A stretch of DNA of 44,392 nucleotides, from positions 1 through 44,392 of the IMG/VR virus record IMGVR_UViG_3300035670_000418; one strand, written 5' to 3'. The position numbers and the translations under genes were made by a program. The notes under the pieces are model-generated. The model did not search any database. It saw only the letters and a list, made by a program, of their open reading frames with translations, and was not told the origin of the DNA. This stretch comes from a virus. Numbering within the stretch: the stretch's first letter is position 1; each line of letters starts with the position of its first letter. Below are positions 17,865-24,412 of the stretch, one piece after another.

Positions 17865-18098
17865 TCACCTATACTGAGCGGTCTTGCGAGCAATCGACTT
17901 CGGCTGCTTTACGAACTGCTTCCCTTTAGCTTTGCCTTTACGCTTTGCAGCCGTTGTACGAGCGTATTCTTGAGGGCTGAGACTTTTGATCGCAGCCTCT
18001 GGGAGGTATCGCTCACCAGTTTTGCTAGACGGTTTACCACTTTTCGTCCTCCACTTTTGAGCGGTCCAGTTCTTCAGTGACTGTTGCGGGGCCCTCAT
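17865..18098 (-). CDS. Small basic protein with GKPSSKTGERYLP motif
   Basis: This 77-aa protein is very basic (many Lys and Arg) and Ser/Thr-rich. It contains WTAQKWRTKSGKPSS, TGERYLPEAA and GKQFVKQPKSIARK. From memory, this block also occurs in proteins of phages and large eukaryotic DNA viruses, in places joined to the type of sequence encoded by the nearby 63-aa gene (18492-18683). Its ATG at 18098 overlaps the stop of the two-helix membrane protein gene (ATGA). High positive charge suggests nucleic-acid binding, perhaps packaged in the virion, but no function is known to me. Confidence 0.65.
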   Translation of the reverse strand: MRAPQQSLKNWTAQKWRTKSGKPSSKTGERYLPEAAIKSLSPQEYARTTAAKRKGKAKGKQFVKQPKSIARKTAQYR

Positions 18099-18508
18099 CG
18101 CTTGGCCTGCACAACGTCATCGCCCTTGGTCACGGTCACGTGATCGCCTTCCACGTCCACGCGCATGGGCTGTTCCTTACGATCGAGCTTGTCGAGCTTC
18201 GCAATCAGATCCTTGATCACGCCAAATTCAGGCTTCTCTTCCTTCTCGCTGGCACCGGCGATGCTGGCTAGCATTGAGATAAGGGCCGTGAGCGACGCGC
18301 CAAGAAGGCCCATCACCGCAGCGATCTTCTCGCCATCCAAAGCAAGACTCGACAACACACCGATCACGACGATCGCCGTGATGTACTTCAGGCCGTCCTT
18401 GCCGATGGCTTTTCCGGCCACTTCCTTGGCAGAGGACTTCGCTTCCAAGCGGTTCAGTTCCGCCTGAACCTGTGCCTTGAATAGTTCAAGATCAGTCCCG
18501 GTATCCAC
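18095..18508 (-). CDS. Two-helix membrane protein, possible second holin or lysis regulator
   Basis: This 137-aa protein has an N-terminal coiled-coil-like stretch (FKAQVQAELNRLEAK), then two hydrophobic segments at about residues 41-58 and 62-85 separated by LDGEK, and a charged C-terminal tail with VIKDLIAKLDKL and a beta-like VDVEGDHVTV. The topology resembles small two-transmembrane holins. It sits three genes after the lysozyme and overlaps both neighbours (17 bases upstream, 4 bases downstream). A classic 3TM-type holin is present nearby, so this may be an antiholin, a pinholin-like partner or an unrelated membrane protein. Confidence 0.65.
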   Translation of the reverse strand: MDTGTDLELFKAQVQAELNRLEAKSSAKEVAGKAIGKDGLKYITAIVVIGVLSSLALDGEKIAAVMGLLGASLTALISMLASIAGASEKEEKPEFGVIKDLIAKLDKLDRKEQPMRVDVEGDHVTVTKGDDVVQAKR

Positions 18509-18683: not shown

Positions 18684-18895
18684 GGCAACGTGGCTCCGCT
18701 GGCAGCGGGGATGGTTGTCACCTGAATGGATACATGTTGTCGCAGGTTCAACGCCTGCCCACAGTCCGAACAGGTGTCGGCATTGAGTTCCGCCTCGTCC
18801 AGATCGTACCCACAGGCGCCGCAATAGACTTCTATTACGTGCGCGGGTTCGATTAGACCAAGGTCCGTGGTCCGTGGTTCAAGGGACACTTTCAT
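18680..18895 (-). CDS. Small zinc-ribbon protein
   Basis: This 71-aa protein has two CxxC pairs, CGAC and CSDC, spaced by about 15 residues, typical of a zinc ribbon. Its ATG at 18895 overlaps the lysozyme stop by four bases. The N-terminal PRTTDLGLIEP is encoded by a duplicated ACCACGGACC unit that also appears in large virion genes of this window. The metal-binding knuckles suggest protein or nucleic-acid contact. I do not recognise a specific function. Confidence 0.7.
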   Translation of the reverse strand: MKVSLEPRTTDLGLIEPAHVIEVYCGACGYDLDEAELNADTCSDCGQALNLRQHVSIQVTTIPAASGATLP

Positions 18896-19383
18896 TCGCC
18901 CACTCCCGATAGATACAGCGCACGCTCGTCATTACGCCGCTTCACTAATCCAGGCAATACTCTACCACCGGCCTTGGTCCATTTCATGAACTCTTCCGCC
19001 GCCTTGTCAAACTCCCCCCGGTTGGTCTTCATCCGAAGGGAAGAGCGTTGGAGATTGCCGAGGCCCACGTTGAAGGCAAAAGATACGAGAGCATCGAAGA
19101 CTCCCTGACGGCCAACAGCAGCAGGGCAAAGTCGAACCACACCACGCTCAAACCGGCCAAGGTCTTGAGAAAGTATCCGGTCCACCTCGTCCATCGTGAG
19201 AATCCGGTCCCAGCCCTCGGGTATCGGTAGATTCCGGCGCTCCTCATACTTCACCGCCAAGTGAGCAGGATCTATTACGTGACCCACCCCCACGCTCCAG
19301 ATTAACGCCGGACATTGGTACGGGCGGGTTCGGACACCCTCATGGCATTTCACAAGTTTAATAAGATCAGGGCTTACTTTCAT
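18892..19383 (-). CDS. Endolysin, T4/P1-type lysozyme (glycoside hydrolase 24)
   Basis: This 163-aa enzyme would cleave the N-acetylmuramic acid to N-acetylglucosamine bond of peptidoglycan at the end of infection. I use the ATG at 19383; the upstream extension lies inside the homing endonuclease gene. The active-site block is CHEGVRTRPYQCPALIWSVG. Relative to T4 lysozyme's Glu-x8-Asp-x5-Thr, this gives Glu15, Cys24 and Ser30. From memory, P1 Lyz also uses Cys at the middle position. GVGH, FNVGLGN and GLVKRRNDERALY are typical GH24 motifs. There is no N-terminal signal or SAR helix, so release presumably depends on the holin. Length matches T4 lysozyme (164 aa). Confidence 0.85.
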   Translation of the reverse strand: MKVSPDLIKLVKCHEGVRTRPYQCPALIWSVGVGHVIDPAHLAVKYEERRNLPIPEGWDRILTMDEVDRILSQDLGRFERGVVRLCPAAVGRQGVFDALVSFAFNVGLGNLQRSSLRMKTNRGEFDKAAEEFMKWTKAGGRVLPGLVKRRNDERALYLSGVGE

Positions 19384-19915
19384 ATCTGCAATTTTCAAAA
19401 TGCCAGCGGTACATTGCACCATCACCGCCAGTTACCCCACATTTAGGGCAAGCCACTCTTGACCTTAAAACCCCTTTTAGTTTGCTTGGCTTGCCTTTCA
19501 ATGCAGTAGATAATTTTTTTTTGTGACTGTCCGAAAATACAATCTTTTTACCAAACATCGGATTCTTGCTACCAAGTTTGGCAATAGATATGTTTTTACG
19601 GTAAGCCTCTGGCCTTTCCTTGCCTTTTGGGTTTGGAGGGATGCCACCTCCAATACATGTATTCCACCCCATGTTTTCAAATGGACGAAGCATTTTTTCT
19701 AAAAACCGCGCAAGATCTTCATTAAGATCCGACGCAATAACATCAACACATATCTCGTCGCCATACTTTTTAATAGCGTTTGATAAATGATTGCGGCGAG
19801 TCTTTGCAGCATTTTTGTGTTGGTAAAACCTAACAGCAGGGTTTACGCTGATTCCAACGTACCCTTCATCAAGCGCAAGGCTTGATCGTTCCCTAATGTG
19901 GTATACCGCTGTCAC
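19367..19915 (-). CDS. GIY-YIG homing endonuclease with NUMOD3 and zinc-finger-like end
   Basis: This is a free-standing homing endonuclease of about 182 aa. I choose GTG at 19915, which overlaps the holin stop as GTGA and is in frame with a longer ORF from 19945. The GIY-YIG core is AVYHIRERS, then GYVGIS, an Arg/His helix AVRFYQHKN and the catalytic Glu in RFLEKMLRP. NUMOD3-like repeats follow (NISIAKLGSKNPMFGKK, LSTALKGK), then CPKCGVTG with His and Cys further on, a probable zinc finger for DNA contact. The gene is visibly more AT-rich than its neighbours (for example around 19500-19560), a sign of recent transfer. It separates holin from lysozyme and overlaps the lysozyme start by 17 bases. 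Confidence 0.85.
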   Translation of the reverse strand: MTAVYHIRERSSLALDEGYVGISVNPAVRFYQHKNAAKTRRNHLSNAIKKYGDEICVDVIASDLNEDLARFLEKMLRPFENMGWNTCIGGGIPPNPKGKERPEAYRKNISIAKLGSKNPMFGKKIVFSDSHKKKLSTALKGKPSKLKGVLRSRVACPKCGVTGGDGAMYRWHFENCRYESKP

Positions 19916-20397
19916 TTCTTGCCGAATGCTTGGGTACCAAACCAAAAGGCGATAATTGAAGACAGGATCAGCATCTCGTCATCTGAGAATACTTCTGCCA
20001 TCGCAGCGGCAAACGGAACACCCGTGTTGTAGGCGTACCACACACCAGCGATGTTGATGGCTACCAGCTCCAGCACGAAGATGTAGGTCACAACTGGACG
20101 GACGCTGGCGCGGAGGTTAATCATCCATTGGCTTGCGCCTTTGCCAATCTCCATGTCGTGCTGATACAGCGCCACACGCTCTTCGGCTGCGGTCTGCACC
20201 TGGATCTGTTCGAGCTTGATCTCTTCCACGCGCGCCTGCGCGAGAAAGCCCCGTTCGGCAAGGGCCAACTCGCGCTCTTTCTGTGCCGCAACGAGGGCCA
20301 ACTCATGCTTCTTATCCTGTCGATCTTGGAAGATTTGCAGGATTTTGGGCAACCCGCCTGCTAAGAACGACAGGAAGGTCGAGACCATTGTCATCAT
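19912..20397 (-). CDS. Holin, 3TM (gene-transfer-agent type)
   Basis: This 161-aa protein has a hydrophobic N-terminus (residues about 5-22), a long charged helix (about 25-85, RQDKKHELALVAAQKEREL), and two further hydrophobic segments at about 101-122 (VVTYIFVLELVAINIAGV) and 141-158 (MLILSSIIAFWFG). The RASVRP just before helix 2 and FWFGTQAFGK at the end match my memory of the GTA-type 3TM holin family. It would form the membrane lesions that release lysozyme. A GGAG site lies about seven bases before the ATG at 20397. Directly downstream is the homing endonuclease, then the lysozyme. Confidence 0.75.
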   Translation of the reverse strand: MMTMVSTFLSFLAGGLPKILQIFQDRQDKKHELALVAAQKERELALAERGFLAQARVEEIKLEQIQVQTAAEERVALYQHDMEIGKGASQWMINLRASVRPVVTYIFVLELVAINIAGVWYAYNTGVPFAAAMAEVFSDDEMLILSSIIAFWFGTQAFGKK

Positions 20398-21765: not shown

Positions 21766-22010
21766 GCAACCGCCTTTTCAATCTGGGCAACGTAATCGTC
21801 AAACGCAGCCTGCTGCTCGGGCAACAGGATCGTCGGCACCGCGTCCTCAAGTTCCTTGATCTTTTCAATCGTGAACATGATTTCGTCCCACGACGGCTTC
21901 GGTCGCGGATCTTCCCAGCGGGTAATCTCGCGGTTGCTGATCTCCCACTTTGCGCCGGGGCGAAGCAAGTGCATCGCCGTATCAATGCCCATGAGTTGAT
22001 AGGTTTTCAT
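21762..22010 (-). CDS. Small tail-fibre assembly chaperone-like protein
   Basis: This 82-aa protein is encoded directly after the Gly-rich adhesin gene (ATGA overlap). It has AMHLLRPGAKWEIS, RWEDPRPKPSWDEI and a helical, acidic C-terminus. The W-(E/D)-x-P...P-(S/T)-W-(D/E)-E-I pattern resembles short tail-fibre chaperones and accessory proteins that follow fibre genes in cyanophages and pelagiphages (from memory). Gene order, fibre then small protein, fits an assembly helper. It has no signal or membrane region. Confidence 0.55.
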   Translation of the reverse strand: MKTYQLMGIDTAMHLLRPGAKWEISNREITRWEDPRPKPSWDEIMFTIEKIKELEDAVPTILLPEQQAAFDDYVAQIEKAVA

Positions 22011-24412
22011 GTGAAGTTGACCTTGAGAATGACGATACCGGAACCGCCTGCTTTTCCATCAAAACCCGCCGGAGATGCTTGCGTTCCGCCTCCACCACCG
22101 CCACCAGTATTTGCGGTGCCTTCAACAGCGCCTGTTGTAGTTCCAGAAGCCCCAGCACCACCCCCGCCTGTACCGCCTGTACCGCCTGTACCACTTTGTG
22201 CGCCACCGCCACCGCCACCTGCGTAAGTGACAGACGATCCGCTGATAGATGATGCGGTTCCATTGCCTCCAGCGCCGCCATTTGGATTGACTCCATTCCC
22301 TCCTGCTGCTGAAGCACCACCACCGCCGCCGCCGGGCCAATTTGGAGTAGTTGCTGCGGCGTTTCCTCCATTGTTACCTTGCGACGGAGAAGTGCTAGGC
22401 GTATTGCCAGAACCGCCCGGCCCTGAAGTAGATGGCGCATTAACGCCACCGCCGCCGCCAGAACCGCCGTTATTTCCTGTGGTGGAATTGGCAGCACTAC
22501 CACCGCGACCGCCAGCGGTTGAAGTAATGGTGCTAAATACGGAGTCATTTCCGTTTGCGCCTACGGTTCCACCAGCACCTACTGTAATGGTGTAATCACT
22601 ACCGGCAGTAATGCTAAATCCGGTGCCGGTTCTAAATCCGCCGGCTCCACCACCGCCAGATGCGCCGTTGTTACTTCCGGTGCCACCTCCACCACCCCCC
22701 GCAACAACGAGGTAGTCAACGCTTACCGCACCCGCTGGTGCAGTCCACTTCTGCGATGACTTGAAGGTAAAGATCGAGGCAGAGCCGATGTCGTACTTGA
22801 GGATGACAATGCCGGAGCCGCCGTTGCCAGCCACTCCATTTGGCACACCGTATGCGCCGCCACCGCCACCACCTGTGTTAGTGGTTCCCGCAGTTGCAAT
22901 AGCAGGCCCGGTATTTCCACCGGCTCCACCACCGCCAGCGCCGCCAGTTCCGACGGTGTTGCTTCCATCAACGCCACCACCACCGCCGCCAGCATACGTT
23001 ACAGAACCGCCAGATATGGATGAGGCGGTTCCCGCGCCACCGTTACCGGCGTTTGGATTGGTTGCATTGGCTCCAACTGCGCTTGCTCCACCACCACCGC
23101 CAGCAGCGTAGGGAGCAGCATTTGCAGCGCCGTTTCCACCATTGTTTCCTTGAGACGGAGCGGTGCTTGGAGTGTTTCCGGCCGCGCCAGTTTGTGCAGC
23201 GCCAGCGCCACCACCAGAGCCTCCAGTTGATGCTGCGTTCGGCAAATTGCCGTAACCGCCGCCTCTACCACCGCCCGTTGAGGTAATAGTGCTGAACGTA
23301 GTATCAGAACCAGACGATCCGGCTACGTTTGGAGATACTGTTGCGCCTGACCCGCCGCCACCAACGGTGATGGTGTAGTCAGTCCCAGCACTTACAGAAA
23401 AACCTGTGCCGGTTCTAAACCCACCGGCTCCACCACCACCACCGCCGTTTGACCCACCACCGCCGCCACCCGCGACGACAAGGTACTCCACCGCGCTAAC
23501 ACCGCTCGGGCAAGTCCATGTGCCGGTAGAGGTGAACGTGGCTACGACAGACTGTACGGGTACGGTGTACTTGAGGATGACGATGCCGGAACCGCCTGCG
23601 CCGCCATCGCCAGTTCCGCTTGCTTGAGCGCCGCCACCGCCGCCACCGCCTCCGGTATTAGCAGTACCGGCAGAACCAGCCGCGCCGTCGCCACCATTGC
23701 CCCCACCGCCCGTACCGCCGTTTCCAGCGGTTCCGGCAGACAAACAGCCGCCACCACCGCCTCCAGCATACGTTACGGATGAACCAGAAATAGAGGACGC
23801 TGTTCCGTTGCCACCGTTTCCAGCAACGGTGCTTGTGCTATCGCCGCCAACAGCAGACGCACCGCCTCCGCCGCCTGCCGCGCCAATACTGGGCGAATTA
23901 ACGCTACTTCCGCCATTGTTACCTTGAGACGGGGCTGTGCTTGGAGTGTTTCCGGCGCCGCCTGTGCCTGTAGCGCCTCCACCTGTGCCACCACCTCCGC
24001 CGCCGGAGCCGCCCGAGCCTCCATTTTGAGAACTTCCGGGAGTGTCTCCGCGTGCGCCATATCCGCCTCCAGTTGAGGTGATGGTGCTAAATACGGAATC
24101 GTTTCCTTTTGCGCCGTTTGTGTTGGTTGTGCTAGAACTACCAGTACCGCCTGCGCCACCAGCGCCAACCGTTACTGTGTAATTAGTTCCGGCTGTTACA
24201 GATAAACCCGTGCCAGTTCTAAATCCGCCAGCGCCACCGCCACCAGCGTAAGTGCCGCCACCGCCCCCACCACCCGCGACGACAAGGTATTCAACCTCGG
24301 TCACGCCGGTCGGAGCAGTCCAGTTACCCGATGCGGTAAAAATCTTGTACTCGGTAAACGCTCCGCCGCCCGCAACTTTGGCAGCGAGCAGCAAACTCAT
24401 AATGCCGCTCAT
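22007..24412 (-). CDS. Triplicated glycine-rich adhesin / tail fibre protein
   Basis: This 801-aa protein is built of three copies of a glycine-rich domain starting at about residues 20, 288 and 546. Each copy opens with a beta segment W-T-(A/C)-P-x-G followed by (E/D)YLVVAGGGGGG, then AGGFRTGTG and YTITVG. It continues with dense GGGG runs, repeated NTPST-PSQGNNGG, and ends in GSGIVILKY. Glycine-rich polyproline-II sandwiches of this type are known as tips of some phage receptor-binding proteins. A short N-terminal MSGIMSLLLAAKVAGG may attach it to the virion. Neighbouring fibre and chaperone-like genes support a host-recognition role. Confidence 0.75.
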   Translation of the reverse strand: MSGIMSLLLAAKVAGGGAFTEYKIFTASGNWTAPTGVTEVEYLVVAGGGGGGGTYAGGGGAGGFRTGTGLSVTAGTNYTVTVGAGGAGGTGSSSTTNTNGAKGNDSVFSTITSTGGGYGARGDTPGSSQNGGSGGSGGGGGGTGGGATGTGGAGNTPSTAPSQGNNGGSSVNSPSIGAAGGGGGASAVGGDSTSTVAGNGGNGTASSISGSSVTYAGGGGGGCLSAGTAGNGGTGGGGNGGDGAAGSAGTANTGGGGGGGGAQASGTGDGGAGGSGIVILKYTVPVQSVVATFTSTGTWTCPSGVSAVEYLVVAGGGGGGSNGGGGGGAGGFRTGTGFSVSAGTDYTITVGGGGSGATVSPNVAGSSGSDTTFSTITSTGGGRGGGYGNLPNAASTGGSGGGAGAAQTGAAGNTPSTAPSQGNNGGNGAANAAPYAAGGGGGASAVGANATNPNAGNGGAGTASSISGGSVTYAGGGGGGVDGSNTVGTGGAGGGGAGGNTGPAIATAGTTNTGGGGGGAYGVPNGVAGNGGSGIVILKYDIGSASIFTFKSSQKWTAPAGAVSVDYLVVAGGGGGGTGSNNGASGGGGAGGFRTGTGFSITAGSDYTITVGAGGTVGANGNDSVFSTITSTAGGRGGSAANSTTGNNGGSGGGGGVNAPSTSGPGGSGNTPSTSPSQGNNGGNAAATTPNWPGGGGGGASAAGGNGVNPNGGAGGNGTASSISGSSVTYAGGGGGGAQSGTGGTGGTGGGGAGASGTTTGAVEGTANTGGGGGGGTQASPAGFDGKAGGSGIVILKVNFT

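Follow-up and report, generated by a model that had tools for sequence, protein, structure and literature searches.

A putatively mobile free-standing GIY-YIG endonuclease gene in the start/stop overlap between phage holin and lysozyme genes

Introduction

In phage T4, SegA–SegG are free-standing GIY-YIG endonucleases that undergo intronless homing, lie between conserved genes and show co-conversion. Five of the 12 free-standing endonuclease ORFs of T4 overlap the upstream ORF without a clear ribosome site, and the cleavage sites of free-standing enzymes lie hundreds or thousands of base pairs away. The HNH nuclease gene mobE has an AUG that overlaps the nrdA stop (UAAUGA), and translational coupling was proposed for it. 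I-TevI has a zinc finger in its linker, and its co-conversion is one-sided, as the enzyme remains attached to one of the product ends (all from the accessible parts of PMC2988022). In phages Shivani and phiR201 a GIY-YIG endonuclease lies between spanin genes about 700 bp apart, and the spanin gene pair overlaps in T5 (accessible part of PMC6139136). Among the phage endonucleases of the T5orf172/IPA-HNH kind, nuclease and DNA-binding halves were swapped between copies (accessible part of PMC10448857).

Here we analyse an endonuclease gene in the lysis cassette of a phage (virus of bacteria). The window is the whole stretch studied, positions 1 to 44,392 (44,392 nt) of IMGVR_UViG_3300035670_000418. 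Like the T4 Seg genes, the gene is of GIY-YIG type, has no intron, lies between conserved genes and appears to move with co-conversion, and it overlaps its upstream neighbour as some free-standing T4 endonuclease ORFs do; unlike the Seg genes, it sits in a start/stop overlap, overlaps both flanks, belongs to a lysis cassette and occurs in uncultured, largely aquatic phages. It shares with mobE a start within the upstream stop, but mobE encodes an HNH nuclease among other genes, and an overlap with the downstream gene, as found here with lysozyme, is not described for mobE in the accessible parts of PMC2988022. As in Shivani and phiR201, a GIY-YIG gene splits an overlapping pair of lysis genes, here holin and lysozyme rather than spanins, and many loci are compared here, whereas the accessible part of PMC6139136 deals with two phages and describes no site survey. 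The predicted catalytic fold is held in common with I-TevI, although I-TevI itself is intron-encoded. Compared with the T5orf172/IPA-HNH enzymes, the C-terminal half of the present family is exchanged along with the adjoining lysozyme start. Neither ‘holin’ nor ‘lysozyme’ occurs in the main text of PMC10448857, and we found no description of an endonuclease between holin and lysozyme in the open-licence literature searched, part of which was accessible as extracts. Judged from sequence and a structure model, the gene is best filed alongside the T4 Seg genes as a putative free-standing GIY-YIG homing endonuclease, with an I-TevI-like catalytic fold. The upstream-stop overlap (mobE) and the splitting of overlapping lysis genes by a GIY-YIG gene (Shivani/phiR201) are not without precedent; the unusual features are how broadly these genes are specialized to one start/stop overlap and that decayed copies are absent from the sample.

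Results

The genes around the junction all lie on the minus strand, with the endonuclease gene exactly between holin and lysozyme (Table 1). A sequence-only reading of this DNA had described this position, a GTG start inside the holin stop, a lysozyme start inside the endonuclease 3′ end and a raised AT content, and each of these was borne out. The gene runs from GTG at 19915–19913 to a TGA ending at 19367, the lysozyme ATG is at 19383–19381, and the GC content is 42.2% against 55.0% in the holin and 56.7% in the lysozyme gene. The upstream gene is presumed to be the holin from its position in the cassette and from its label in the sequence-only reading; a Pfam search with its protein gave no match. 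The longer lysozyme frame, opening at 19425, probably does not begin at the real start, because relatives with an empty junction begin lysozyme at the homologous codon, within the holin stop. Neither an intron nor an intein was seen around the endonuclease, as the flanking genes are uninterrupted and Rfam (gathering threshold) had no match in the window, where a tRNA scan was also negative. Elsewhere in the window, an 801-aa gene (22007–24412, phrog_2295) contains long internal direct repeats, 22087–23518 matching 22855–24322 at 64% DNA identity.

Table 1. Features of the holin–lysozyme junction in the window
Feature	Positions	Strand	Details and basis
Endonuclease gene, GIY-YIG/NUMOD3, free-standing homing type (predicted)	19367–19915	−	182 aa, GTG start; phrog_314 homing endonuclease, E 2.4e-13
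Upstream gene, taken as holin	19912–20397	−	161 aa; phrog_6637 (PHROG without function)
Lysozyme/endolysin	18892–19383	−	163 aa; Pfam Phage_lysozyme, E 2.2e-34; phrog_7 endolysin
GTGA, overlap of holin stop and endonuclease start	19912–19915	−	Same as the empty junction of relatives
17-nt overlap of endonuclease 3′ end and lysozyme start	19367–19383	−	ORF coordinates
Lysozyme 5′ end, putatively co-moved with endonuclease	19325–19383	−	Identical to L006 through lysozyme nt 59
Catalytic GIY-YIG domain, residues 1–88	19652–19915	−	Predicted model; I-TevI 1ln0, Z 10.5
NUMOD3 motif, residues 104–124	19544–19606	−	Pfam PF07460, 21.5 bits, cut-off 20.4
C-terminal CxxC...HxxxC module, residues 156–176	19388–19450	−	Alignment A1 and Cys/His conservation

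The protein had been called GIY-YIG/NUMOD3, which agrees with a NUMOD3 match over the Pfam cut-off, an I-TevI catalytic fold and membership of phrog_314. Its GIY-YIG Pfam score is 19.5 bits, under the cut-off of 22.6; at E≤0.01, 9 of 12 family members match Pfam GIY-YIG. A structure was modelled from a 12-row alignment (A1) with a mean pLDDT of 66.8 overall, the means per ten residues being 70–90 over residues 1–80, 52 over 81–90 and lower beyond; a prediction from the single sequence reached a mean pLDDT of 35.5 and was not used. The best PDB matches of the model were to the I-TevI catalytic domain (Foldseek probability 1.00, E 2.7e-3), and VIA-align superposed 85 residues on 1ln0 with an rmsd of 2.7 and 16% identity over the aligned part. 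We found that Y5, Y19, R29, E73 and N85 were invariant in 72/72 distinct proteins; the tyrosine positions of the domain we take to be catalytic. With its fold and its Tyr/Tyr/Arg/Glu/Asn set, the protein has the features of the GIY-YIG superfamily, and nuclease activity is predicted. Catalytic roles of the Arg, Glu and Asn in GIY-YIG nucleases have been described (accessible parts of PMC2988022). The C-terminal CxxC...HxxxC module was found in 10 of the 11 other rows of A1, its Cys and His columns being conserved in 64–65 of 73 rows, and it matched zinc-finger structures weakly (Z 2.3–3.2) in a part where the model is of low confidence. The module is probably zinc-binding and DNA-recognising.

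Relatives were gathered by scans with lysozyme (best 80 of 341), holin (best 80 of at least 598) and endonuclease (38 loci); some loci share one contig or are near-copies, and counts refer to distinct haplotypes or proteins wherever this is indicated. Among the loci listed with both neighbours (n=182), 116 were empty and 66 occupied. The holin–lysozyme spacings of these 182 listed loci fell into a few classes, after which the types are named (469, 502, 529 and so on). The loci listed comprised 97 distinct junction haplotypes, 63 empty and 34 occupied: GTGA was present in 63/63 empty ones, with the lysozyme start within the holin stop, and the holin side of the occupied ones read ATGA in 19 and GTGA in 15. 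Since empty junctions consist of a 4-nt start/stop overlap, the endonuclease gene is an insertion into that overlap. The comparison with insertion-free relatives that had been proposed thus placed the site exactly at GTGA and overturned the suggestion that the element replaced native spacing, the native state having none. A syntenic 65-kb record (L075), whose TerL is 99% identical in amino acids and whose main shared DNA blocks are 80–94% identical to the window (others 65–76%), has an empty junction.

The same contrast appeared in surveys anchored on the holin. The window-holin scan (best 80 of at least 598) gave 71/80 empty and 9/80 occupied junctions, the latter including the window's own virus. 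Two distant-holin scans (best 80 of at least 592 and best 80 of 387 relatives) gave the empty overlap in 58/80 and 68/80; 11 and 9 loci carried an endonuclease of these types, and the remaining 11 and 3 were contig ends or other arrangements. These sequence comparisons show occupied and empty alleles at one site, as is expected of a homing endonuclease. A holin search of bacterial genomes gave 1 locus among 36 pattern matches, on a 54-kb contig of a MAG titled Candidatus Paceibacterota; its holin stop is TAA with lysozyme directly after, and it is no reliable host pointer.

We then considered the 131 endonuclease loci listed from three single-protein endonuclease queries, all of which were examined. 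In 115/131 the neighbours within 800 nt on the same strand were a P0003-like holin and, after it, a P0002-like lysozyme, showing that the placement is not due to chance; 5/131 had one neighbour and a contig end, and 11/131 had neither. One endonuclease scan (best 80 of 128, down to 43% identity) had 79 loci at the junction, and at the 80th the contig ends after the holin. A neighbour test with some loci's own flanks as queries agreed with the test by window proteins only. The occupants vary, being 158–200 aa long with unlike catalytic halves, and the 532-type has a different C-terminus; the C-terminal module of the 502-type is different too. Exceptions to the two-sided overlap were L278, L283 and L289, in which the endonuclease stop lies about 80 nt before the likely lysozyme start. 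At L329 the ATGA of the holin stop holds the start of an unrelated 217-aa ORF (from 2280) that precedes lysozyme; the junction thus admits other genes too. At L326 and L334 a lipoprotein-like ORF of 53–61 aa starts in the holin stop, which by resemblance we take to be possibly an outer-membrane spanin.

The extent of the inserted block was examined by comparing the window with occupied and empty relatives. Window and L006 share an identity block from 6 nt before the holin end to lysozyme nt 59 with one difference inside, and the block shared with L017 reaches 6 nt into the holin and 98 nt into lysozyme, with 13 differences. Against the near empty loci L104, L097 and L099, identity was 93–96% in the 100 bp at the holin end, fell to 60–61% in the opening 100 bp of lysozyme and was 86–100% in the next three 100-bp windows; this high-low-high pattern indicates an imported block made up of endonuclease and lysozyme start. 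The shared block looks like a one-sided co-conversion tract, against which it counts that the block ends only 6 nt into the holin and would require recombination at very short homology there. The signature AAAGTAAG at lysozyme codons 2–4 was present in 22/34 occupied and 5/63 empty haplotypes among the loci listed, and was lacking in the 502-, 511- and 526-types and in L167/L168. Empty junctions with a lysozyme start typical of occupied alleles were seen at L008, L009, L033, L057 and L071; these five signature-bearing haplotypes are possibly precise losses, never-occupied donors or resistant alleles.

The halves of the endonuclease have also been swapped. Between L017 and L169 the first 380 nt of the gene were 98% identical, the rest 43% and lysozyme nt 4–60 44%, and the reverse was found between L048 and L022 (39%, 76% and 100%, respectively). 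The C-terminal half moves with the adjoining lysozyme start, although physical linkage alone would also give such a block. Lysozyme N-termini in environmental phages can accordingly differ in history from the remainder of the gene.

Movement between unlike viruses was apparent from synonymous differences. The window and L006 endonucleases differ by 0 synonymous and 1 non-synonymous changes in 177 codons, as against a pS of 0.65 in the flanking holin and 0.55 in lysozyme. At the DNA level (>150 nt, E 1e-10) the 34-kb L006 record matches the window only in the cassette and at 18100–18486, and it has no TerL match to the window's, TerL being the one protein compared at protein level and the record possibly a fragment. 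In pairs of other types, endonuclease pS was likewise low against holin and lysozyme, namely for L013–L062 (0.00 versus 0.58/0.62), L124–L128 (0.07 versus 0.64/0.62) and L023–L048 (0.12 versus 0.67/0.53). A recent-transfer pattern was lacking in L013–L024 (endonuclease 0.63, holin 0.67) and between the window and L168 (0.51 and 0.60). From sequence, these data argue for horizontal transfer of the endonuclease with co-conversion of its flanks. A short gene at 18095–18508, just downstream of the lysozyme region, has 72–79% DNA identity with viruses otherwise matching mainly in the lysis cassette, and the exchanged module may extend to it.

A holin tree was built from 95 rows, 30 of them occupied, excluding L001, L002 (whose record is identical to the window across the 22 kb overlap), L082 and L161, and also without loci that have a short holin or lysozyme or a holin identity below 85%. 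Endonuclease presence required 13 gains or losses, 6 of them forced by well-supported (starred) branches, compared with 25.7 changes for shuffled labels, so presence is patchy yet clustered. Within one family (28 loci, 378 pairs), endonuclease and holin identities correlated at depth with r 0.76 (holin–lysozyme 0.90), and the endonuclease was more similar than the holin in 282/378 pairs. The clustered presence and this correlation suggest that part of the descent is vertical within lineages.

We next calculated the Shine–Dalgarno-like pairing of each start with the 16S tail. The holin start had a median of −6.9 kcal/mol (88 loci), whereas the endonuclease start (−2.5, 33 loci) and the empty lysozyme start (−2.5, 60 loci) were near random (median −2.2, lower quartile −3.5); the occupied lysozyme start was slightly better (−3.8, 33 loci), with +0.4 in the window. 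These values fit coupled translation in both occupied and empty states. The earlier proposal that the insertion kept coupling on both sides is supported by the exact empty site, the GTGA and 17-nt overlaps and the weak ribosome sites at both starts. Coupled translation would suggest a reason for insertion right at the overlap and may account for the absence of broken copies.

Of the distinct proteins with 140 aa or more (n=72), none was broken; the single shorter protein (L187) ends at a contig end. Nine unusual junctions, searched for decayed copies with 21 endonuclease queries, gave no match better than E 0.3; junctions of this kind held the L326/L334/L329 ORFs, a holin with a TAA stop, or a different start. 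Endonuclease-based scans are biased to intact genes, a bias of which holin-anchored surveys should be free, and the three such surveys (best 80 each) contained 29 occupied loci with 20 distinct proteins of 158–193 aa, all intact. Omega was mostly 0.06–0.3; of five pairs at 0.34–0.53, four compare chimaeric or unlike types and one rests on just 10 differences. The L011–L023 holin value was excluded because of a truncated holin.

Discussion

Taken from sequence, the gene very probably encodes a free-standing GIY-YIG homing endonuclease and is mobile, occupying the RTGA start/stop overlap between holin and lysozyme. Comparison supports two steps: the gene inserts exactly at RTGA, keeping the holin stop and a lysozyme start while the endonuclease borrows both, and it spreads between divergent viruses together with the lysozyme 5′ end. 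In a co-infected cell the enzyme would then cut the DNA of the other phage, at its still empty junction or in the 5′ region of its lysozyme gene; repair would carry the endonuclease, along with the lysozyme start next to it, into the cut phage; and the new lysozyme start, no longer fitting the enzyme, would be protected. Ribosomes finishing the endonuclease may re-initiate at the overlapping lysozyme start, so that lysozyme would still be made.

The gene might instead be a passenger that does not cut its way into new sites and changes hands when co-infecting phages recombine their lysis cassettes in the ordinary manner, since the cassette is generally mosaic and is common to viruses of otherwise unlike DNA. 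Because the cassette recombines in general, we compared 68 same-length endonuclease pairs with holins at least 15% different with 1445 empty pairs of equal distance. A match within 3% was seen for the lysozyme 3′ part in 8/1445 empty and 0/68 occupied pairs and for the endonuclease in 8/68; a difference of ≤1%, however, was found in 6/68 for the endonuclease and in none of the lysozyme 3′ parts (0/68 and 0/1445). As pairs have members in common and are not independent, this is a contrast and not a probability. Together with the invariant catalytic positions and an omega mostly well below 1, it makes the passenger explanation unlikely. Still less credible is that the frame is a chance one or encodes a non-nuclease protein; the sub-threshold GIY-YIG score of the window protein would fit this, but fold, NUMOD3, phrog_314 and purifying selection speak against it, and we give it next to no weight.

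Domestication, which the sequence-only reading had raised, would make the gene a third lysis gene, an ex-endonuclease that is vertically inherited and retained for a role in the timing of lysis or in lysozyme expression. The near-fixed position in very distant viruses, the lack of broken proteins, the retained coupling and the co-divergence with the holin at depth would all suit such a role. Yet the overlap is empty in most loci of each holin-anchored survey, different architectures occupy one site, and the patchy presence, the jumps between viruses of unlike DNA and the invariant catalytic positions leave domestication unsupported; a lineage-wide, vertically inherited gene is not what was found, and we regard this alternative as quite improbable. 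That reading had also named a fixed ancestral place with neighbour-like composition as an observation that would speak against a homing insertion: the position is indeed nearly fixed, but presence is patchy and the composition differs.

With the mobile homing endonuclease as the preferred reading, a more tentative extension, which we think possible but less likely than not, combines translational hostage-taking with a key and a lock. The endonuclease frame would be the ribosomes' sole route to lysozyme, and the recognition module and the recoded lysozyme start would travel together. As lysozyme has no clear ribosome site, a broken endonuclease would silence it. A frameshift or nonsense mutation would thereby cost the phage its lysis, so that the gene may have no way to decay and would skip the decay phase of the homing cycle. 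The C-terminal recognition module (key) and the recoded lysozyme start (changed lock) would move as a block while catalytic halves are exchanged. The absence of a clear Shine–Dalgarno-like site at lysozyme, 0/72 broken proteins and the L017–L169 and L048–L022 blocks are in favour; against it, low omega points to selection on the encoded protein as well, which would not be expected if just the reading frame were protected, and physical linkage could be enough to produce such a block.

Well over 100 occupied and empty junction loci form a data set for the persistence of a selfish endonuclease without decay, and the same loci show exchange of lysis-gene parts between unlike phages. A further possibility is that co-infecting phages interfere with one another at the lysozyme start; such interference has been reported for an intron endonuclease of phage PhiPA3 (accessible part of PMC11620839).

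Among named phages, 53 of 50,697 records matched the window endonuclease, all at <60% identity, compared with 5 records for the holin and 1164 for lysozyme. In Vibrio PS14A.1 the endonuclease match is placed between unnamed genes. In Methylophilales phage MEP301 (L300, 2974–3555) a putative endonuclease matching the GIY-YIG part of the window's is flanked by two tail genes and overlaps each of them by a single base, a comparable start/stop arrangement in a different place.
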